From: a virus
DNA: 23,408 bases
IMG/VR virus record: IMGVR_UViG_3300027659_000213
Coordinates: 1 to 23,408 of that record
Direction: 5' to 3' (one strand)
Positions 5,792 to 23,408 of this stretch are shown here, in pieces. Positions within the stretch are counted from its first letter, which is position 1. Each line of letters begins with the position of its first letter. The translations under genes and the position numbers were made by a program. Below the pieces are notes generated by a model. It saw only the letters and a list, made by a program, of their open reading frames with translations. It had not been told where the DNA came from and made no database searches.

Positions 5792-8700
5792 ATGGCAACC
5801 GATATCCCATTGCAGTCTGAATCAGAATTCACTTCCGATATGGTTAAAGCGGTTGAAACAATCGCTGTAAATGTCAAATTGGGATCGGCAGAATTTTCAT
5901 CAAGTATAGATTCACTTTCAAAAGCCATTGATGGCTTAAAATCTTCTTTAATAGACTCAATCAATTCACTTAAGGCTTCTGCTAGCAATGTTGCTCCAAG
6001 TAGCCCTAGTGCAGCACCTAGAGCATCTCAGGGCAGATCGCCTTCAGCACAAGATCCAGCAGTTGCAAGACAAAAAGAAGAAGATAAAAGAGTAAAAGCA
6101 GAGGTTAAAGCACTCAACCTTAAGACTGCACAAGAAAGAGCAATCTTTAATGCAAAAAAACTTCAATTGCAAATTGAAAGTGTAAATGAAGGAAAAACTA
6201 CTAGAAGAAAGAAAACTGATGCTGATACTCAACAGCAATCTATAGAAGAGGTTTTTGAAAATGTAGGAAAGGGTTTTGGTGATGTATTTGCTGTAACAAA
6301 AGAACAGGTTTCAGCAATGACAAAGAGTGGGAAGAAGGGTAAAAAAGAAAAGCCATTTGAAATGGACATGGGTGCGTTGTCTGGAAGTTCGGTAAAAAAA
6401 GAGGCCGGTAAGGGTGTAGATATAGCACCCCAGTTTATTGGCGATATTATGAATGCTTCAGCAGCATGGAATAATGTTTTTGCCAACGCTGCTGAAAGTG
6501 CAAGCAAATGGAAAGATGTTTTTTCAATAGCAGATGAATCTAGGCCAAAACAAACTAAAGAGTTTGACCCAGGTACAGATTTTGCTGACCCGATAATAAG
6601 AATACTTGAACAGACATCTGAGGAAATGGCATCTGTTGTAAAAGCTGTAGAGTATTCTGGTGGTGATTCTTATGACATTAAAGAAGAAGCAAAAAAAGAA
6701 GAATCAAAAAAAGTTGAAGAGCAAGTACCGCTTGTAGGCCCAACTCAAAAAGGTGCAAGAGAATATCAGTTAAAACAAGAAGATGCATCTATAAAAAAAG
6801 GTGTTGATAATTTTGGGGTTTTGTTTGAAGCAATGTTTGGGAAAATGGGAAAATCCGTACAAAATGTTATTGCTACAACCATATCTGGAATTAATCAATC
6901 TTTCTCTGATAAAAGTCCAATACTAGATGCTGTTAAATCAATGTTTGGTGCATCTCCTGTTGGCGGTGGTTCTAAAGGAGAACCTAAAAGAGAACCTGAA
7001 GGAGAATCTAAAGAAAAACCTAAAGGTAAACCTAAAGGTAAACCTAAAGGTGGAATAACTATTCCTACTTTTGATTTTGAAGCAATGGATATCGAAGGAA
7101 ACGAAACTAAAGATTCAGTTGATGCTACAAGCGAAGAAGAAGCTGCGGCTAAAATTAGGCAAATGGGATTGTTTATTACCAAGATAACAAAGTCTAAAAA
7201 ACGTGAATTGCGTTCTGAAACGGAAGCTGGTCTTCCAAAAATCATGGAAAATATAGGATTTATATTTAGTGATGTTTTTAGCCTTTTTGGTGGTGGATCA
7301 TCTAGAAGTAGTAACGAGAATAATACTTCACCAAAACCTGATGAAGGATTTCCAGGCGGGATAAATGGCGATGAATTTGATACAAATCCAAGAGTGCATA
7401 AAGATGTTTTTGGAGGAACAATTGGTTATTACGCTAAAGGAACGAAGCCAAAGAGTGGTATGGGTGGAATATTTGAAGGTATAGGAAGTGTATTCGGCAA
7501 TATGTTTGGTGGAAAGAAAAAGAAAAAGAAGAAGAAATCTTTTCTTAATAATGACGAAAATAATTGGGATACAGATACAAACTACGAAAACAAATACAAA
7601 AATTATCGTGCGGATGGTGGGGAAATAGATGATGAAGACACTCCTTTTAAACCAAAAGGAACTGATACTGTTCCCGCTATGCTTACTCCAGGGGAAGAAG
7701 TAGTAAAGAAATCTGCTGCTGAAAAACCTGAGAACAAAGCAGCAATTGATGCCATGAACAAGTCTTCTGGAGGCAAGGTTGGATATTTTGCTGGTGGAAC
7801 GCCAGGGGGTGGTGGTAAAGGAATTGTTGGCGGTTTGGCTTCGTTAGCTCTTGGGCCTGTTGGTGCTGCGTTTTCTGTACTTACTGGAAGTGTTAAAGCA
7901 GCATCTGATGCTATAGGTATGTTTGGAAGTTTTGTTGCAAAAAACAACCCAGCAATTATGGAACAAGTAAACCTTGCAATGAATGATTTGCAGGGTGTTA
8001 TAGGAAGAGCTTTAGTTCCAGTAGTTCAAGGGCTTATACCTGTTCTTCGATTTTTGGGCGATGGCGTTGATTTTGTAATGAAAATGTTGATGCCAGCAAT
8101 AACTCCGATAGCTAATGCTTTTGCAACATTGGCTATGCCATTGATTGAGTTAGAAGCAGTAATTGCACAGTTTCTTGCTCCAGCATTTGAAATAGTTGCA
8201 GTTGCAGTTGAAGGTTTTGCAATTATGCTTGACCCTGTGATTCAACTTCTTGCGGAAATTGTAGAATCGTTTACCCAACTTGTAGACAGTTTTTTGGGAG
8301 GGATTCCAATAACAAAACTTATGAAAGATGGATTTGAGATTTTAGGTCAAGTGATGAAGATGTTGGTTGGAGCAATAGTAACAGTATTAGGTTTGTTTAT
8401 GTCTGGTATGGGAGTAATACTTCAGCTAGCAGGGTTGTTGATTAGCGGATTTGGGAGCATGGTAAAAGGTATTGGTGACCTTCTTTCTTATATCCCTGGT
8501 ATGAAAACAATTGGTGCTGCACTTTCTACTGCTGGTGAAGCAGTTGGTGGAGCAGGGAAAGCAATTGTAAAAAGTGGAGAAGATTTGCAGAAAAAGGGTG
8601 AAGATCAAAGAGATAGAGGTATGGATAAAGTTGTAGAAGGGGCACAAAATATAGCTGGTAAATTTGGCGATCCTAACTACAAAATGAAGGATAACACTAG

Positions 8701-10679: not shown

Positions 10680-11840
10680 ATGGCAACAGATATTTTTGCA
10701 AGAGTGACTGTATTGGAAGATCCTGTTGGGGTAACCATTGCTTCTCCACAGGTAACTCCAACTCTATCTGATCCAGTATCGACTGTTACGATTTTAGATG
10801 ATAGCAATATAGCAGTTCTTAGGTATGTTAGTTTTACTCCATCATCTTTATCAATAAGCCTTACTGCTCAATCCAATGTGTTTACGGTAACAGGAAGTCC
10901 TATTACTGCTAATGGAACATTTGATTTAAACTTTATTACTACTGGTGCTAATACATTTCTTGCAGGGCCAGTAAGTGGGTCAGGATTGCCTTCGTTTAGG
11001 GTTATTAACAAAGCTGATATTCCTGACATCTCTTCTACATACTTAACTGCTGTATCGCATAACAACACGCTTACCGGAAATGGAACTGCTGCTTCACCGC
11101 TCCAAGTGGTCACAGGTGGGGCGGTTGGTTCTGTGAATTCAGTTGCAATGACCTCAACTGATTTTACCATTTCCGGTTCTCCTATAACTTCGTCTGGAAC
11201 ACTCATTGCAAATCTTACTGCAACAGGTGTGCCATCAGGAACCTATGGAAGCTCAACCCAAGTTCCAATTATTACAGTTAATGCAAAAGGCCAAGTTACA
11301 GATGCAACAACTGCTTCAATTTCAATTCCAACGCAAGGTTTAACATCTGTTGGAATTTTATCTGCAAGTTTAACTGTTACAAATTCACCATTAACAACAG
11401 ATGGCAACATAACTTTAGAAACTGCTCCAACCGGAGTAACTACAGGTGTGTATGGATCTAATTCATCCATTCCACAAATCACAATTGGCCCTGATGGCAG
11501 AATAACATCAGCAGTAAATTTATCTGTTGGAACTCCAGGTAGTGGTATTGGTACAGTTACATCTGTAGGTTTAACATCTTCAACATTATCTGTAACTTCT
11601 ACACCAATTACTTCAGATGGATTTTTAGCAGTTGATTTAACTTCCTCCGGTGTAATTGCTGGAACATATGGAAATTCATTTAACATTCCTATTGTTACGG
11701 TTAATTCCTTTGGGCAGATAACTAGTGTTAGCACAAGCGAAATAAGCCCACTTCCAGCGGGTGGTTTAACTAGTCAAGTATTAACTTACAATAATGAAGA
11801 TGAACAAGCTTGGGTATACTCTGATGGGGGTACATGGTAA
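10680..11840 (+). CDS. Tail fibre protein with trimeric-type repeats
   Basis: A 386-aa Ser/Thr/Gly/Val-rich protein, AAGGAG five bases before ATG 10680. After a short N-terminal part (MATDIFARVTVLEDPVG) come at least three repeats of about 65-75 residues with a shared plan: SVGLTS.TLSVT..PITS.G, then TGV..GTYG, then P.ITVN..GQIT. It also has HNNTLTGNGTAASPLQV and FRVINKADIPDI, both common in phage fibres. The C-terminus is GGLTSQVLTYNNEDEQAW, a usual end of fibre shafts. It ends with TAA overlapping the next gene's ATG (TAATG). Probably a shaft subunit of the adsorption apparatus. Confidence 0.75.
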   Translation: MATDIFARVTVLEDPVGVTIASPQVTPTLSDPVSTVTILDDSNIAVLRYVSFTPSSLSISLTAQSNVFTVTGSPITANGTFDLNFITTGANTFLAGPVSGSGLPSFRVINKADIPDISSTYLTAVSHNNTLTGNGTAASPLQVVTGGAVGSVNSVAMTSTDFTISGSPITSSGTLIANLTATGVPSGTYGSSTQVPIITVNAKGQVTDATTASISIPTQGLTSVGILSASLTVTNSPLTTDGNITLETAPTGVTTGVYGSNSSIPQITIGPDGRITSAVNLSVGTPGSGIGTVTSVGLTSSTLSVTSTPITSDGFLAVDLTSSGVIAGTYGNSFNIPIVTVNSFGQITSVSTSEISPLPAGGLTSQVLTYNNEDEQAWVYSDGGTW

Positions 11841-14800
11841 TGAGTTTAACGATAAATAGTTATTCTGGTGGAACTATATCAGGATCTGGAACAATTGCAG
11901 ATCCTTATTCAATTCAAATGGAATCTTATAGTTTTAGTGTTTCTTTTAGTTATTCTGAAAATGGAACTATATTTTATGGATTTAGTGGTCAAGGAACACC
12001 TTATTACGATAACTCCGTAGAACCACCTGTTTATCATGGTGGAAACACTTTTTTTGTTCAAAATTTAAATTATGTTTGGAATGATGATTTACCTTTTACT
12101 GGGTATCCTTCTGGTCTTTCTAACAGCGACAATTTTAGCGTAGACATTACTAATGTAAACCCAGTTGTTTTTGACATAAGTGCTTACCCAGAATCAGGAA
12201 CATATGTTTGGGATAATACTACAGTTAGTCTTTCTGTATGGTTTGTTTCAGATGTCCAAATTCCTACTGCATTAATAGTTGATGTTCAACCAGCGGGAGT
12301 TGTTTCTGGTGATCCATTTACAACTCAACCAATAATTAAAATAGTAGATCAAGATGGAAATTTAATTCCAACAGCAACAGATGTTGTTGATGTTTCTTTA
12401 GTAGATGTAACTGGTTCATCAGTTTTAACAGGAACATTAAATGCAACTGCTTCCGGTGGATATGCAGCATTTACAGATTTAATTGCTACTGGTGTTGGTT
12501 CATTTTATTTAACATTTTCATCAGGTATATTAACCCCTGTAAATTCTGACACATTATTTTTTACTCCTGATGCTGGCAATCCTAATCCCCCAATTCCAGT
12601 TAAACCAAAAAGATCATATATACCCTCATCAGTTCCAACTTCTGGTGATATGGAAACTAACGAATTTGCAATAAATGTTGCAGATAAAAAGGGTTATGTT
12701 CGTGATTCAAACGGTATCATTCATTTAGTTTTTGATGGTAATGCTAGTGGTTCTGGAACAGTTACTTCTGTTGGATTGTCTTCCACTAATTCAACATTAA
12801 CAATTTCTAATTCTCCTGTTACAACTTCTGGAACAATTAAAATTGATTTATCAAAAACTAGTGTATCTGCAAAAGCTTATACCAATGCAGATATTACAGT
12901 TGATGCTTATGGAAGAATTACTGCTGCTTCAGATGGTGCTGTTGGTGTAACCTCAATTATTGCCGGAACTGGTGTGTCAGTAGATACTGCAACAGGCGAT
13001 GTTACAGTAACTAATTCTGCTCCAGATCAAACCGTTTCATTGACAAATGGAACGGCAATTTCTGTAACTGGAACTTACCCTGATTTTACTGTTACTAATG
13101 ATTCTCCTGACCAAATTGTTACATTGACTGACGGAACGGCAATTTCTGTAACAGGTACATATCCAGACTTTACTATTACCAATGATGCTCCTGATCAAAT
13201 TGTTTCGATCACCTCTGGAACTGGCATTAATGCTACTGGAACTTATCCTGACTTTACGATTGATTCAACAATAACTCAGTACACGGATTCAGATGCAAGA
13301 TTAGCATTATCCGCTGGCACTGGCATAAGCTACGATAATGCAACAGGAATTATTACAAATTCAGAACCAGATCAAATTGTTTCATTAACTGATGGAACTG
13401 GTGTTTCAGTAACTGGTACTTATCCTAATTTTACTATCGCAACGACTATTACCCAATATACAGATTCTGATGCAAGGCTATCTTTGTCTGCTGGAACTGG
13501 AATTTCTTACGATAATACAACAGGGATAATTACTAATGATGCACCAGACCAAACGGTTTCTTTGACTGGTGGAACAGATATATCTGTAACAGGAACTTAT
13601 CCAGATTTTACTGTTGATTTTGATGGTTCAATTCCTACAAACGCTGATGCTGATACTGCAGGTATTGTCTATGGGCTTACTACAGATAATGTTTCTGGAT
13701 ACAATGTTTCTCTTGGTTTTGGTGCTAACGGAACTCTTACTACAGGAATAGCCAATATCGCTATAGGTGGTGCTTCTGGTGATATGACATCTGGAAGTTA
13801 TAATGTTGCCATAGGATTTGATTGCAATGTTGCCGATCCTACTGCGGACAAACAGTTAGCCATAGGCCCAGATGCTTATGTTCGCTGGATTACTGGCGAT
13901 TCTAGCATGAATATTAAGCCAGGTGCTGGGATTAAAGATGCTTCAAATTCTTTAGGAACTTCTGGCCAAATTCTTTCTTCAACAGGAACTGCCATCCAAT
14001 GGGTTGGTTCTGGTGTTACATCAATCATTGCTGGAACAGGTGTATCAGTAGATGTTTCAACAGGTGCGGTTACTGTCACCAATTCTTCTCCTGACCAAAC
14101 TGTTTCATTGACAAATGGAACAGGAATATCGGTAACTGGAAGTTATCCTAGTTTTACTATTGCAACAACAATTACACAATACACAGACACAAATGCAAGA
14201 AAGTCATTATCTGCTGGAACTGGAATTTCTTATGACAATGCAACAGGCATTATTACAAATAGTAATCCTGATCAAACTGTTTCTTTAGCAAACGGAACTG
14301 GAATTTCTGTAACTGGAACATATCCTAGTTTCACAATAACCAACTCTTTACCTGATCAAACAGTTTCTTTAACTGATGGAACAGCAATTTCTGTAACAGG
14401 TACATACCCTAGTTTTACCATTACTAATAATGCTCCTGACCAAACTGTTTCATTAACAGATGGAACTGGCATTACCGTTACTGGTACATATCCAAGTTTT
14501 ACAATCACTAATTCATTGCCTGATCAAACAGTTTCTTTGACAGATGGAACTGATATTTCGGTTACTGGAACATATCCTAATTTTACCATTTCTTACACAG
14601 GTACTGGTGGTTCTGGAACAGTTACATCTGTTGATATGTCTGTTCCTACTGGTTTGTTGGTGAGTGGAAATCCTGTTACAACAACTGGAACATTAGCAGT
14701 AACCTTTGATACTGGTTATTCAATTCCAACAACATCTTCTCAAACTACATGGGATACAGCATATACAAATCGAATTACTAGCTTAACAACTACTGGAAGT

Positions 14801-16279
14801 GGTGCAGCAACTCTAGTATCTAATGTTTTAAATATTCCTACACCATCAGCAGAAACATTTACATCTTTAACCGTTACTGGAAGTAGCGGAGCAAGCACAT
14901 TGTTATCAGGTGTTTTAAATGTTCCAACTTATACTTTATCTGGTTTAGGTGGGCAAGCTTCATCAACAAACTTGACCTCTGTTGCTGGTCTTACATATGT
15001 TTCTTCTTCATTTGTTAAAATGACAGCAGCGGGAACATTCTCTTTGGATACAACTGCTTATGGAACAGGATCTGTAACATCTGTTGCTGCTTTGACTCTT
15101 GGAACAACTGGAACTGATTTAAGCAGTACAGTTGCAACAGGTACAACAACCCCTGTTATTACACTAAATGTTCCAACAGCATCTGCAACAAACAGGGGTG
15201 CTTTAAGTTCTGCGGACTGGACAAACTTTAATTCTGGATTCACGCAAAGGCTTCAATGGGATGGTGGTGCAACTAACCTTGTTGCAGCAACTGGTAGAAC
15301 TTCCTTGGGCCTAGTAATTGGAACTAATGTTCAAGCATGGGATGCTGATCTTGATGCAATTGCAGCATTAGTTGGAACTACCGGATTGCTGAAAAAAACT
15401 GCTGCAAATACTTGGTCTTTAGACACATCAACTTATTTAACTTCTAATCAAACTATTACATTAAGTGGCGATGTTAGTGGAAGCGGTACAACTGCAATTA
15501 CAACCACTTTGGCTACAGTAGGAATTGCAAAAGGTGGAACAGGTCAGACTACAGCTAATGCAGCAATAAATGCTTTGCTACCTAGTCAAACAAGTAATAG
15601 CGGTAAATATTTAACTACTGATGGAACAAATTCTTCGTGGGGTACAGTTTCTTCTGGAACAACAATTCCATCTGCTTCAATGCAAATGTTTGCTGGTGCA
15701 ATTACTCAAACTGTAAGTGCTGGAACCGTTACAACTACAGCACCAACAGGGTGGTTATTGTGTAACGGTAATGCAGTTTCAAGATCGACATATTCAGCAT
15801 TGTGGACAGCATTAGGAACTACTTCAAGCCCTTATGGTCAAGGCGATGGAAGTACAACATTTAATTTACCCGATTTAAGATCAAGGGTTCCGCTTGGTGT
15901 AGGACAAGGAACTGGGCTAACAAACCGCACACTTGGTGGAACAGTTGGAACTGAAAACGAGACATTGTTATCTTCACAAATTCCCGCACATAGTCACCCT
16001 AATACCGTGAGTGGTGGAAGTACTTCAAGTGCAGGTAGTCACACGCACACGCTAAGTAAAGAAGTTTTAACTTATGTTGGAAGTGGCGGTAGTAGATACG
16101 ACCCATATCCAGGAACAGTTTGGACAGGCAGTCCAGCAGCAGGGTTAACGCTAACTACTCAGCCAGATCACCAACACACATTTACCCCAAGCATCACAAA
16201 CAACAACAATACTGGTGGTGGTGGATCGCATAACAATATGCAACCAAGTATTGGCATTAACTTCATCATCAAAACTTAG
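11840..16279 (+). CDS. Long tail fibre with tail-collar domain
   Basis: A 1479-aa protein (ATG 11840 overlaps the previous TAA; ATG 11834 would add MV, and GGGGG at 11826-11830 suits 11840 better). Order of parts: an N-terminal beta region; a bacterial Ig-like domain at about 140-245 (VQPAGVVSGDPFTTQPIIKI); SVGLSS-type shaft repeats; ten PDQ(T/I)V(S/T)L repeats in two arrays, three of them fused to a TQYTDSDAR...GISYDNATGIITN module; a YadA-like NIAIGGASGD...NVAIGFD head segment between the arrays; further shaft repeats (LSGDVSGSGTTAITTTL, IAKGGTGQTTANAAINALL); and a C-terminal tail-collar domain at about 1307-1479 (PTGWLLCNGNAVSRSTY, NLPDLRSRVPLGVGQG, IPAHSHP, HNNMQPSIGINFIIKT). Likely a receptor-binding fibre. 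Confidence 0.85.
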   Translation: MSLTINSYSGGTISGSGTIADPYSIQMESYSFSVSFSYSENGTIFYGFSGQGTPYYDNSVEPPVYHGGNTFFVQNLNYVWNDDLPFTGYPSGLSNSDNFSVDITNVNPVVFDISAYPESGTYVWDNTTVSLSVWFVSDVQIPTALIVDVQPAGVVSGDPFTTQPIIKIVDQDGNLIPTATDVVDVSLVDVTGSSVLTGTLNATASGGYAAFTDLIATGVGSFYLTFSSGILTPVNSDTLFFTPDAGNPNPPIPVKPKRSYIPSSVPTSGDMETNEFAINVADKKGYVRDSNGIIHLVFDGNASGSGTVTSVGLSSTNSTLTISNSPVTTSGTIKIDLSKTSVSAKAYTNADITVDAYGRITAASDGAVGVTSIIAGTGVSVDTATGDVTVTNSAPDQTVSLTNGTAISVTGTYPDFTVTNDSPDQIVTLTDGTAISVTGTYPDFTITNDAPDQIVSITSGTGINATGTYPDFTIDSTITQYTDSDARLALSAGTGISYDNATGIITNSEPDQIVSLTDGTGVSVTGTYPNFTIATTITQYTDSDARLSLSAGTGISYDNTTGIITNDAPDQTVSLTGGTDISVTGTYPDFTVDFDGSIPTNADADTAGIVYGLTTDNVSGYNVSLGFGANGTLTTGIANIAIGGASGDMTSGSYNVAIGFDCNVADPTADKQLAIGPDAYVRWITGDSSMNIKPGAGIKDASNSLGTSGQILSSTGTAIQWVGSGVTSIIAGTGVSVDVSTGAVTVTNSSPDQTVSLTNGTGISVTGSYPSFTIATTITQYTDTNARKSLSAGTGISYDNATGIITNSNPDQTVSLANGTGISVTGTYPSFTITNSLPDQTVSLTDGTAISVTGTYPSFTITNNAPDQTVSLTDGTGITVTGTYPSFTITNSLPDQTVSLTDGTDISVTGTYPNFTISYTGTGGSGTVTSVDMSVPTGLLVSGNPVTTTGTLAVTFDTGYSIPTTSSQTTWDTAYTNRITSLTTTGSGAATLVSNVLNIPTPSAETFTSLTVTGSSGASTLLSGVLNVPTYTLSGLGGQASSTNLTSVAGLTYVSSSFVKMTAAGTFSLDTTAYGTGSVTSVAALTLGTTGTDLSSTVATGTTTPVITLNVPTASATNRGALSSADWTNFNSGFTQRLQWDGGATNLVAATGRTSLGLVIGTNVQAWDADLDAIAALVGTTGLLKKTAANTWSLDTSTYLTSNQTITLSGDVSGSGTTAITTTLATVGIAKGGTGQTTANAAINALLPSQTSNSGKYLTTDGTNSSWGTVSSGTTIPSASMQMFAGAITQTVSAGTVTTTAPTGWLLCNGNAVSRSTYSALWTALGTTSSPYGQGDGSTTFNLPDLRSRVPLGVGQGTGLTNRTLGGTVGTENETLLSSQIPAHSHPNTVSGGSTSSAGSHTHTLSKEVLTYVGSGGSRYDPYPGTVWTGSPAAGLTLTTQPDHQHTFTPSITNNNNTGGGGSHNNMQPSIGINFIIKT
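13022..13618 (+). repeat. Fibre repeat array 1 (five PDQ units)
   Basis: Five copies of a unit beginning PDQ(T/I)V and ending TGTYP(D/N)FT. Units are 28 residues (84 bp) alone or 59 residues (177 bp) when fused to the TQYTDSDAR/GISYDNATG module, which occurs twice here. Order: short, short, long, long, short. DNA copies have diverged at third positions but stay alignable by eye. Confidence 0.85.
14090..14590 (+). repeat. Fibre repeat array 2 (five PDQ units)
   Basis: Five more PDQTVSL units: one long (with TQYTDTNAR/GISYDNATG) then four short ones. Each array is introduced by the same segment VTSIIAGTGVSVD, at about 12949 and 14016, so a block larger than one unit seems to have been duplicated. 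Units here share PS at the TYPSF position, whereas array 1 has PD or PN. Confidence 0.85.
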
Positions 16280-16287
16280 GAGAAATA

Positions 16288-16473
16288 ATGGAAGTATTAA
16301 TTACTGAAGTAACGACTATGGAAGGAATAAAAGGTTATTCCATTACATATATTAATAGAAACAACAAAAGAACTATTAATGATCAGGATTTTTTTCCTGA
16401 TGGTTCAGATATAGAAACTAAGGTTCAACAACTTAAAAAGTTGTTAAAAGACTATTTCGCTTCTCAGGTATAA
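16288..16473 (+). CDS. 61-aa protein of unknown function
   Basis: AGGAG four to five bases before ATG 16288, eight bases after the fibre stop. The product (MEVLITEVTTMEGIKGYSITY...) looks like a short beta hairpin region followed by a helix with Lys and Leu (VQQLKKLLKDYFASQV). There is no membrane segment or Cys. It could be a fibre-assembly or small lysis-region protein, but nothing in the sequence decides this. Confidence 0.55.
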   Translation: MEVLITEVTTMEGIKGYSITYINRNNKRTINDQDFFPDGSDIETKVQQLKKLLKDYFASQV

Positions 16474-16507
16474 ATGGTAGAATGTTTATTTATTGGAGGT
16501 CAGGAAA

Positions 16508-16780
16508 ATGATATTCGCAGACATTAATATCATAGACATTATCGAGCGATTCGGAGTGTCTTTAAGTTTTCTGGTTTTCCTTTTGTGGGCGGTTTACAAG
16601 GGGTTTAGTTGGTTGGGTCAAAACATTCTACTTCCCCTGCACCAGAGACATATGGTGTTTATAGATAGGCTAGAAAGCTCCATTGGCGAGGTAGCCAAGG
16701 CTCAAGCCGAAAGCTTGAGGATTTTGACAGAGGTTTTGAATTACACTAGGACTTTAAAAAAGGAAGTGAAGCATGATTAA
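16508..16780 (+). CDS. Small membrane protein with coiled coil (holin or spanin candidate)
   Basis: A 90-aa protein. GGAGG at 16495-16499 is eight bases before ATG 16508; the in-frame TTG at 16493 overlaps that site and was rejected. A hydrophobic helix over residues about 15-38 (FGVSLSFLVFLLWAVYKG) is followed by a long charged helix with heptad-like spacing (FIDRLESSIGEVAKAQAESL) and a basic end. One membrane pass plus a soluble coiled coil resembles some class III holin-like or tail-anchoring proteins. The 3' end overlaps the next gene by eight bases. Topology is read directly; the role is inferred from the neighbouring genes. Confidence 0.6.
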   Translation: MIFADINIIDIIERFGVSLSFLVFLLWAVYKGFSWLGQNILLPLHQRHMVFIDRLESSIGEVAKAQAESLRILTEVLNYTRTLKKEVKHD

Positions 16781-17090: not shown

Positions 17091-17364
17091 TCGGGGATCA
17101 CAATGGGCCAAGGTACGAGCAGCACATTTAAAACGGAATCCTAAGTGTGCTGCTTGCCTTGAGGATGATCCTGAGTTGCTTCAAGTCCACCATCTGATAC
17201 CATATTCTAAGGATGCATCTTTAGAGATGGAACCAAAAAATTTACTGTCGCTATGCAGACCTTGTCATTTTCTTTTTGGTCACGCAAAAAAATGGTCATC
17301 AGTAAATGTGTACTGTTTGATAGATTCTAAAAACATGGCAGAACGAATAAGGAGCAGACCGTGA
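17077..17364 (+). CDS. HNH endonuclease without a normal start codon
   Basis: The frame carries QWAKVRAAHLKRNPKCAAC, then LQVHHLIPYSKD, then EPKNLLSLCRPCHFLFGHAKKW. This is a clear HNH nuclease: two Cys pairs (CAAC and CRPC) for zinc, the HH pair, Asn in KNLLSLC and the final His of PCHFLFGH. The conserved region begins before any ATG or GTG in this frame. Upstream the frame is open only from 17074, and the sole near-start is CTG 17077. The only nearby ATG (17103) is one frame off and ends after 13 codons. So the gene either uses CTG, is joined by +1 slippage at the T7 run (17080-17086) to the previous gene, or is a broken copy. It ends TGA overlapping the next gene's GTG start. HNH proteins often act with terminase or in DNA transfer, but this one lies in the lysis region. 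Confidence 0.7.
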   Translation: MFFYNRGSQWAKVRAAHLKRNPKCAACLEDDPELLQVHHLIPYSKDASLEMEPKNLLSLCRPCHFLFGHAKKWSSVNVYCLIDSKNMAERIRSRP

Positions 17365-19516: not shown

Positions 19517-19551
19517 ACAGGACACAATTAAAACTGTGTCCTGTTTTTTTT
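19517..19551 (+). terminator. Strong intrinsic terminator
   Basis: ACAGGACACA (19517-19526) pairs perfectly with TGTGTCCTGT (19535-19544) around an eight-base loop, and is followed by a run of eight T (19544-19551). It lies in the 72-bp gap between the 85-aa gene and the next fibre-like gene and closes the preceding transcription unit. Confidence 0.9.
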
Positions 19552-19562
19552 AAGGGAGCGAA

Positions 19563-20750
19563 ATGAGAATACAACCTGTTCAAGGCGGAGGAATGAACGC
19601 TGGATACGATGCATCCACGGGTTCAATTACTATTTCTAATGAAGGAAATAGCCCATTTATTTATGTCAGAGTAAATAACAAAATACCATTTGGTGATGAA
19701 GTTGAAATCACAGGGTATTATCGTTATTACGATTTTTATGAAGTTATTTGGGATGGAATTGATTTTGTTGAAGATATTGGTGGTTTGAAAGCAGATTTTG
19801 AATCTAGAACAACTTGCCCTAAAATGTATGCCATGCCATACGATATTGATGAGCCAAGTAATCAAGGCAATTTTACTGGAAATATCGGTGTGTCAGGTCA
19901 AGGTTTGGTTTACATGGCTAGGCTTCGTGGAGTGGATTCAACTGACGGAAGAGATATATACGAATTCCTGAGAAGCCTTGACCCTTCTTCAAAATGCTTT
20001 GTAGAGATCGATGAAACAGGTATTATTAACGGCTATTACCCTGCATTGGGTTTTGATACTCTTTCACAATCTTCTGCAAATATGGGTACATTTTGGGCTA
20101 AAGATATTAATGGTGGAGAGTTGGTTGCTGGAAGAAAATATGTTGGATACTATGTTGGAACTTCTTATAATCCATATCCAAACGACCCCATTAATTCTGA
20201 TCCAAGGCCAAGAGTAACGCTGTTAAATTCTTTGGTTGCAGGGCCATCAGGAATAACGGTTGTTACTGATGTTACTTGTGTTAACGGTGTTCTTGCAAAT
20301 ACCTATGCAACTATTTACCCTTCTGAAACAGTACAGATTGCAGAAGATGCAAGAAAAAGTTTTCTTACTTTAACCGATACTCCTGATTCATATGCTGGTG
20401 TTGCAAATTATTATGTAGCTGTTAACCCAACTGCAACAGGTTTAAAATTTACTTCAACAAATCCAGCTTCAGTTACTGTTCCTCCGATGTCATTCATAAA
20501 CCTCCAAGATTGTCCTAATTCTTATTCTGGGACATCTGGAAAAATAGTTACTTCAAATGGTGCTGGTTTGATATTTACAACTGTTGGATTTACTACACCA
20601 ACAGATTCCTCAATTATACCTAAACAAAATTCATTAAATTCAACTATAGAATTCCGACTTGTGAATGATGAATTAACTCCAGGTGCAAATAAATATTACG
20701 GAACTAATGGTTCTGGTGTTAAAGGTTGGTATGACTTACCAGAGGTATAA
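19563..20750 (+). CDS. Fibre-like adsorption protein
   Basis: A 395-aa protein with AGGGAG four bases or so before ATG 19563, after the terminator. The N-terminal half is beta-rich and aromatic (DEVEITGYYRYYDFYEVIWDG) with no known motif. The C-terminal half holds two copies of a fibre motif: FLTLTDTPDSYAGVANYY and FINLQDCPNSYSGTSGKI, each followed by a VNPTATGLKFT-like or SNGAGLIFT strand. That L.D.P.SY.G motif is common in phage fibres. It lacks a collar domain. It is probably an adsorption or virion-surface protein, perhaps partnering the large protein that follows. Confidence 0.55.
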   Translation: MRIQPVQGGGMNAGYDASTGSITISNEGNSPFIYVRVNNKIPFGDEVEITGYYRYYDFYEVIWDGIDFVEDIGGLKADFESRTTCPKMYAMPYDIDEPSNQGNFTGNIGVSGQGLVYMARLRGVDSTDGRDIYEFLRSLDPSSKCFVEIDETGIINGYYPALGFDTLSQSSANMGTFWAKDINGGELVAGRKYVGYYVGTSYNPYPNDPINSDPRPRVTLLNSLVAGPSGITVVTDVTCVNGVLANTYATIYPSETVQIAEDARKSFLTLTDTPDSYAGVANYYVAVNPTATGLKFTSTNPASVTVPPMSFINLQDCPNSYSGTSGKIVTSNGAGLIFTTVGFTTPTDSSIIPKQNSLNSTIEFRLVNDELTPGANKYYGTNGSGVKGWYDLPEV

Positions 20751-20752
20751 AA

Positions 20753-23408
20753 ATGGCATATAGGCCAACAAACAATATTCAAGAAAATGTAATTCATAGA
20801 AACACAATCTTTGATTCTCAAGGGATGGTTTCTTGTTGCACTTGTGGATATTGCATTGAAAAAAATGAAAATCCAATTTTAAAATTAGCTAATTTTAAAG
20901 CAGCAGATCCTTTAGTAAATGAAAATTCTATCGGTAATACAGTTTTAGAATTTTCTAATTACATGATTCCAACAGGAAGTTTTGAATATGTATTAACACC
21001 TTATCAAACTACAGATACTTTTTCAGATGGAACAAATGCAACAAATCTTAAATTTGCGGATTCTTTAGTCTATTACCCTTTTTTAAAATGTGAAGGAATA
21101 ACTACATTAAAACCTAATGAATATTCCTACATTTTTAGCAATCCAAATGCTTGGCCTTTATCAACCAATGTAAATGGATCACCAACAAAAACACAAAAAC
21201 CTTACGCATCAGAATTTGCAAAACCTTCTATACAATATGTTAATCCAACTTTAGGCTATCAATCAAATACACTACAACCAATACCAGCAACAAGTTTTCA
21301 ATATATTAATAATGGTAATCCTCTTGTTCCTTCCTCTGGAACTATATTATTTGAAAATCAATTTGGTTCTTATATAGCAAATTTAGGCGGATTTTCTTAT
21401 AATAATACATCTTTTAACGGAACTTTTTATAATGCTTCATATTTATATTATACTGGAAGTGTTCCATTACAAAGTGACTATTATAAATGGGGGAATGTAA
21501 ATTCTGGATTTTATTCTTTTTATGCTTTAAAAAACACTACATTCATTGTAAAAGATTCTCAATATGAATTTTCAACAAAATATAGTTTTAGTACTCAATC
21601 AATATTAAATAATGGAATTACACCAAATTTAGCTAAGAATTTTGGGCAGTTATACCCATACACTATTATTACACCTCAACAATTTTTCAATTATGATAGT
21701 CATATAGATGTTTTGGATTTATCAAATTTTAAAGACAAGGATTCTTTTTGGCTTGATGGATCAAACAAAAAATTAGATTATTTTAATTGGATTTCTTCAG
21801 GTGGTTCAATTCCATGCAACGGAACACAATTACAAAATATAGCAGCAACTACAAATTATAATGTAACAAACTATACAACAGAAAAACCTTATCCTTCTGC
21901 AGTTGATATTGGAGATTACCAAACATATTTATCATATGTTAACACACATGAATTTTCACATTTAGGTTTCAAATCTGATTCGGGTTGTACAAATAATATT
22001 TCTAAATTAATAACACCTGTTTATTTTAAATCAGTTGATGATTATTCTTTTTCGTACACATATCCAAACTATACTAAAACAAATTCAGTTTTTGGAATTA
22101 CAGACAAATTTATTATTCCTAATTTTCAAACATGGCAAGATTGCTTATCAAATGCAAATCCTGCAACTAAAACACTTCCAGCAAAAACAGTTCAATTAAA
22201 AGAAATGAATTCAACAGATAACATTTATAAAGGTGGTTATGTATTAGATAAGTTTCAAATTAATAAAGATGGAGCATTCAACGGAACAATTTCTATAACT
22301 GCAAGGAATGATTTTTTTGCTACAGGTTTAGAAAGTGTTTGGAATTTAAAAAAATCTTTAGTTTATGATGGGAGTCAAAATTGCACTTATTTTTCTAATA
22401 AATGGGATAATAATGTTGTACCTGTTCTTGAACAATTTAACATTTATAAAAACGCTGTATTTAATCAAACATTGATTCAAGAAAATGAATTTATTAAAGC
22501 AAATCCAACAACATATATTGATTATTATAATCAAGTTAAAACAGGATTTTATACAAACGGATCTTTTAATTATTATTCATCTGGAATACCAGTTACTTAT
22601 TATGAAGATGTTTGCAGAGGATACATTCAACAACCAAGCTCTTTAGCTTTACCTGTTTCTTATGTTGCACAAAAAACTGATAGAACAAAAATTACATCAA
22701 CAACAGACGCATCAGGAAAAACAACAACCACTATTAGAAATGTTTTGTGGGTTGGTAAAACTCTTTTAACAAATACTTATACTCATAATTCTGGTTCTAA
22801 TAGACCTAATCTTGCAAATGGTAAAGTTCCTTTAACATACGATGCAATTTTAAAAGGTGGTTTTGAATCTGATATTATTGTTTCTTTTCAAAGTAAACCA
22901 ATATGTTCAATATTTAATATTGCTGATGAATTAAAAAGGGTTACACAATTCAAAGTAAATTTTGAAAACTATCAAAAACCCCCACAACAAAATTTTGCAG
23001 TTAATGACTATACCCAAGAGATTGTAAACGCTTCACCAGATATTCCAGCATCTTTTATAATAGGTAATTTTTCAACAATTAACTCGATTTTTCCTTTTAA
23101 TCAAACACCAATAACTTATTATAAAAGTTTTGATAATATTGCTTTTGGAATTCCCAACACAAATCCAAATGAATATTTTTATATTCAGAAAGAAATTCAA
23201 AAACCTACTTTACCTTACAATTATGGTTTTCACGAAGATTGGTCTTTAGTAAAAAACATCGAAGAAATATCCCCAACATTTGCTTATTATTCTGCTTCTG
23301 CTGGAAGGGTTTACCCTGATTTTGGTGTACCTGATAGATTCAAAAGTTGTTTGTTAATTAATGGTGGTGAAGATGTTTGGGCAACAGGAAACGAAATTAC
23401 AATACTTG
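20753..23408 (+). CDS. Very large AT-rich protein of unknown function, partial
   Basis: From ATG 20753 the frame stays open without a stop to the window edge, giving at least 885 residues. It starts two bases after the previous stop (AGAGG is about seven bases upstream). The product is unusually rich in Asn, Thr, Tyr, Phe, Gln and Ser. Near the N-terminus is a Cys cluster (MVSCCTCGYCIE, Cys28, 29, 31, 34) that could bind a metal. The rest is mixed strands with segments such as NNTSFNGTFYNASYLYYTG and no membrane helix. Codons end almost always in A or T, unlike the capsid genes. It may be a receptor-binding or other virion protein, from its place after a fibre gene, but I recognise no family. 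Confidence 0.8.
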   Translation, partial: MAYRPTNNIQENVIHRNTIFDSQGMVSCCTCGYCIEKNENPILKLANFKAADPLVNENSIGNTVLEFSNYMIPTGSFEYVLTPYQTTDTFSDGTNATNLKFADSLVYYPFLKCEGITTLKPNEYSYIFSNPNAWPLSTNVNGSPTKTQKPYASEFAKPSIQYVNPTLGYQSNTLQPIPATSFQYINNGNPLVPSSGTILFENQFGSYIANLGGFSYNNTSFNGTFYNASYLYYTGSVPLQSDYYKWGNVNSGFYSFYALKNTTFIVKDSQYEFSTKYSFSTQSILNNGITPNLAKNFGQLYPYTIITPQQFFNYDSHIDVLDLSNFKDKDSFWLDGSNKKLDYFNWISSGGSIPCNGTQLQNIAATTNYNVTNYTTEKPYPSAVDIGDYQTYLSYVNTHEFSHLGFKSDSGCTNNISKLITPVYFKSVDDYSFSYTYPNYTKTNSVFGITDKFIIPNFQTWQDCLSNANPATKTLPAKTVQLKEMNSTDNIYKGGYVLDKFQINKDGAFNGTISITARNDFFATGLESVWNLKKSLVYDGSQNCTYFSNKWDNNVVPVLEQFNIYKNAVFNQTLIQENEFIKANPTTYIDYYNQVKTGFYTNGSFNYYSSGIPVTYYEDVCRGYIQQPSSLALPVSYVAQKTDRTKITSTTDASGKTTTTIRNVLWVGKTLLTNTYTHNSGSNRPNLANGKVPLTYDAILKGGFESDIIVSFQSKPICSIFNIADELKRVTQFKVNFENYQKPPQQNFAVNDYTQEIVNASPDIPASFIIGNFSTINSIFPFNQTPITYYKSFDNIAFGIPNTNPNEYFYIQKEIQKPTLPYNYGFHEDWSLVKNIEEISPTFAYYSASAGRVYPDFGVPDRFKSCLLINGGEDVWATGNEITIL

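Follow-up and report, generated by a model that had tools for sequence, protein, structure and literature searches.

In Alteromonas phages, complete modules for host recognition are documented to pass from one phage to another: the fibre and its neighbours in phages A5, V22, and P24 move as a unit between backbones, and conserved terminase and head genes are found beside unrelated recognition genes (PMC10579305). That a receptor-binding fibre may contain metal is exemplified by the short tail fibre gp12 of T4, a zinc metalloprotein according to titles cited in PMC3004832. A further point of comparison is offered by the phiCbK-like Caulobacter phages, the tail proteins of which resemble a fibre encoded in the DNA described here.

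The window, i.e. the whole stretch of DNA analysed (23,408 nt), is a fragment of the uncultured virus record IMGVR_UViG_3300027659_000213. At its end, directly behind a fibre-like gene, lies a large gene (20753..23407, plus strand) covering residues 1-885 of an expected total of about 1,200, the product of which is probably a virion protein for adsorption (receptor binding) that is exchanged between phages and has constant ends around a hypervariable middle. As in the Alteromonas phages, the fibre and its neighbour appear to move together and conserved genes flank unrelated contents. The moving unit, however, comprises fibre and chaperone there (PMC10579305) and fibre plus a protein of 979-1,591 aa here, no match to the window protein was found in phage records, and the exchange seen here is within one lineage only. 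With T4 gp12 the large protein would share the presence of metal in a phage receptor-binding protein, going by those cited titles (PMC3004832), but gp12 is a different protein with which no match was found, and metal is suggested here by Cys/His spacing alone. The resemblance to phiCbK-like phages is confined to the fibre gene, the large protein having none.

The reading frame, its composition, and the upstream fibre

The open frame begins with ATG and continues for 885 codons without a stop up to the window end, as the preliminary description had noted in saying that the gene runs off the window. It is a real gene, because 885 open codons at 28% GC are beyond chance and because its codons, compared with those of the closest complete relative (contig 3300042353_000754, hereafter L104), give a dN/dS of 0.32, indicative of purifying selection. 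The description's statement that the gene is more AT-rich and richer in Asn, Thr, Tyr, and Phe than the head genes was borne out: GC (0.280) and GC3 (0.115) are the lowest among the longer genes of the window, and the protein contains 10.6% Asn, 9.4% Thr, 7.7% Tyr, and 6.8% Phe, with Asn at roughly 4-5% in the main head genes. The GC and codon comparison that it had proposed showed the fall in GC3 to be graded, from 0.33-0.42 in most head genes to 0.16-0.19 already in three tail genes (10680, 11834, and 19563).

A separate origin or late acquisition had been suggested from this composition. Exchange of the gene between backbones, detailed below, is indeed shown, and together with these minimum values of GC and GC3 it is what would speak for a recently acquired foreign gene. 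Nevertheless, such an acquisition is very improbable: every Cys-bearing member of the family has a gene GC of 0.28-0.35 whatever its backbone, the adjoining tail genes already drift towards low GC3, and no bacterial source was found, the C-terminal Cys/His module described below having no match in 84,980 bacterial and archaeal species genomes. Because all Cys-bearing members on every backbone share it, low GC is an old property of the family and not a sign of late acquisition by the window phage, and recent foreign acquisition on grounds of composition was rejected.

The fibre-like gene directly upstream (19563..20750, plus strand) encodes 395 aa, of which the first ~43-141 constitute a shared anchor and the remainder is exchanged. 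A match to PHROG tail protein 11660 covers its residues 226-349, and residues 229-387 match the phiCbK-like Caulobacter phage tail proteins with 32-37% identity. Only 2 nt separate its stop (20750) from the start of the large-protein gene (20753), and a Shine-Dalgarno-like AGAGG (20741..20745, plus strand) read from the sequence stands 7 nt 5' of the ATG, still within the fibre gene near its 3' end. Of the earlier statement that the gene follows a fibre-like gene after a terminator, the fibre therefore stands and the terminator does not, since the only strong terminator-like hairpin near the large-protein gene, with its T-run (19517..19544, plus strand), is located just 5' of the fibre gene. 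In L104, the fibre homologue is also preceded by a hairpin (6762-6791), but a different one.

A protein family with constant ends and a variable middle

No significant match to the window protein was found in Pfam or PHROGs, and four or five of its relatives yielded nothing significant in Pfam/NCBIfam and matched PHROGs through repeat inserts only. Searches of 50,697 phage records and of PDB sequences likewise gave no match to the family. In keeping with the earlier assessment of "no known family", the large protein thus lies outside every catalogued family. The first search, which used the window protein alone, returned no relatives; these were reached via searches with the neighbouring genes (about 100 related phage loci), followed by a family-profile search that added more. 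The family occurs in about 20 related IMG/VR phage contigs, with complete members of about 979-1,591 aa, and the large protein is found directly behind the same fibre-like gene in every relative with a visible flank. The putative capsid protein was found neither in bacterial and archaeal genomes nor in phage records, and the terminase of a relative is distant from those of cultured phages (25-29% identity among the matches listed). The large protein of L104 (L104:8001-11642) has 1,214 aa and is 85% identical over the 885 residues of the window, and hence the window copy is expected to be short of about 330 C-terminal residues.

The N-terminal Cys cluster highlighted in the preliminary description, CCTCGYC (residues 28-34; 20834..20854, plus strand), proved noteworthy, with its four Cys invariant in 20/20 aligned members. 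Complete members bear a second, C-terminal Cys/His module, beyond the point at which the window copy is truncated, and their end is nearly invariant, reading C-x-H-I-G-K-V-I-D-R-K-x-C-N-C-P-K-K-W-x-R-x-C-x2-H-x2-T-D-W-K-x-C-x2-C. The invariant potential ligand set accordingly consists of CCxCxxC at the N-terminus and, in complete members, C-x-H ... C-x-C ... C-x2-H ... C-x2-C at the C-terminus. Among the first 103 loci, no other protein contained either cluster. Metal binding by the clusters is possible, judging from their spacing.

Between these ends, conservation is markedly uneven, being high at residues 1-75, 101-125, and 626-750 and hardly present at 126-375. The conserved N-terminal region (residues 1-125; 20753..21127, plus strand) displays 57-78% majority identity with a dip at 76-100 and is presumed to be the virion anchor; N-terminal attachment to the virion is plausible because few parts of the protein are conserved as well as this one. 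It is followed by a hypervariable stretch (residues 126-375; 21128..21877, plus strand), parts of which are lacking in about half of the members, and further on by a conserved core (residues 626-750; 22628..23002, plus strand) with a majority identity of 0.50-0.69. Against L104, dN/dS rises from 0.17 in residues 1-130 to 0.46 in 131-400 and falls back to 0.23 and 0.19 in the remainder. This maximum in the variable middle speaks for the adsorption reading. As all values are below 1, the middle would be subject to weaker constraint or else be diversifying in part, and that its faster change may be relaxed constraint counts against that reading.

Structure prediction had also been proposed earlier. 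AlphaFold models of the window protein and of a 979-aa relative (L108) have a mean pLDDT of 52 and 59, respectively; their confident parts are beta-rich, while confidence is low in the two Cys modules and in the variable middle. Fold searches with these two low-confidence models gave only weak and scattered matches, the best being unrelated proteins (Z 4.6 and 5.4) with phage tail proteins at Z 3-5, and the best match among viral predicted structures (E 4e-4) has a TM-score of only 0.09-0.15. A known fold is neither supported nor contradicted by this outcome. The poor quality of the models counts against the adsorption reading.

In the relatives L001 and L012, the large protein carries Gly-rich repeats (type GSGYT..PTVTISGGGGTGATA) that the window protein lacks; in several relatives such inserts are located in the conserved-core region. 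The repeats of L001 and L012 have PHROG matches in virion structural and tail fibre families (E about 1e-9 to 1e-20) and in baseplate families, and a similar insert is present in the fibre homologue of L001 (11521-12984) after about residue 43. Both observations speak for the adsorption reading. That these matches sit in relatives and not in the window protein, and that they include head/virion structural and head closure families, weighs against it. The head-related matches lend some credit to a structural part of the virion that has no role in receptor binding, for example a head decoration or a neck appendage, made variable by exposure. This alternative is nonetheless unlikely, for the gene comes last in the tail module, immediately behind the fibre gene and far from the head genes, and the protein is exchanged along with the C-terminal part of the fibre.

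Exchange between phages and the occupants of the slot

Two relatives illustrate the exchange. Contig 3300045424_000096 (L002) is close to the window in its backbone (capsid-like protein 98%, tape measure 89%, and the 17361 gene 97% identical), but its large protein is only about 30% identical in the conserved parts. Conversely, L104 is far less alike in its backbone (86%, 28%, and 67% for the same three genes) and 87, 69, 90, and 96% identical across the large protein. At the DNA level, the window and L002 are 92% identical up to 19687 (fibre codon 42), then 70%, after which no similarity is left. These comparisons show that the large-protein gene is exchanged between phage backbones. The repeat insert in the L001 fibre lies near the point where the window/L002 identity breaks.

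The slot from the fibre N-terminus to the terminase was found to have three mutually exclusive occupants. In L009, L011, L013, L014, L016, L018, and L025, the fibre is kept up to about residue 141 and is followed by unrelated proteins of ~390, 490, and 300 aa, while L022 and L024 contain a third type of content. Beyond the slot, all three types share the terminase and two small genes on the reverse strand, and the terminase of L009 is 96-98% identical to those of L002, L004, L005, L006, and L015 despite unrelated slot contents. The slot proteins of L022 and L024, which are without both Cys clusters, match the family over 39 columns near the C-terminus (E 1.4e-4, probability 53%) and are possibly its distant relatives. 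The slot was also considered as a target of a diversity-generating retroelement, which was rejected as reverse transcriptase PF00078 is absent in 10 records (nine of them 42-52 kb, and possibly incomplete).

The same arrangement bears on whether the large protein might act outside the virion, as a secreted, cell-surface, or superinfection-exclusion factor made late in infection. The window protein itself offers no signal of a virion role and Cys/His clusters are common in intracellular proteins too, yet the gene is coupled to the fibre gene and is elsewhere replaced by gene sets that share the N-terminal anchor of the fibre, which renders this option improbable.

The adsorption reading builds on the observed family, its position, its constant ends and variable middle, the backbone exchange, and the mutually exclusive occupants. 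Features of the receptor-binding/tail-fibre class were found in the position within the tail/fibre module, in the window and its relatives, and in a conserved anchor with a diversified, exchanged remainder; no sequence match or reliable structural match links the large protein to any characterised receptor-binding protein. As a large component of the tail or adsorption apparatus, the protein would recognise the host surface, with the binding surface presumably on the hypervariable middle, and its constant ends, with their Cys or Cys/His clusters, would hold it in the virion, probably stabilised by metal binding. Fibre and large protein would constitute two coupled genes, swapped within the lineage through recombination that begins in the fibre, the pair sometimes giving way to entirely different sets of genes in that slot. 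If so, this uncultured phage lineage would have a definite site of exchangeable host recognition that can be filled in three ways, a host-range-determining gene would have been predicted from sequence alone, and the invariant Cys/His ends of a fast-changing protein would serve as a simple marker for more such cassettes in metagenomes.

Cys-rich and other genes in the window and its relatives

A 487-aa Cys-rich (4.9%) protein of an alternative cassette (L009:13423-14883 and equivalents) has its own C-terminal Cys/His module of similar spacing. Kinship of this module with that of the large-protein family was not supported by profile comparison (E 0.42, not significant). It is rather doubtful that the large protein represents a new type of adsorption protein, in which invariant metal-binding ends are fixed connectors around an exchanged receptor-binding middle and a similar C-terminal Cys module is used in parallel by the otherwise unrelated 487-aa protein in the same slot.

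Beside the cassette in L005, a 272-aa gene (15862-16677, minus strand) has a near-threshold glycosyltransferase match (PF23452, E 1e-4); L006, L012, and L013 each have an open reading frame of equal length in the equivalent position. Within the window, a 62-aa open reading frame (17176-17364) partially matches HNH endonuclease families (best E 3e-7) and is possibly a remnant. Lastly, a Thr/Ser-rich tail protein of 1,481 aa (11834-16279) has a Collar domain (PF07484) at its C-terminus; its 84-nt tandem repeats, at about 12937-14590, form a region that is mosaic between relatives.
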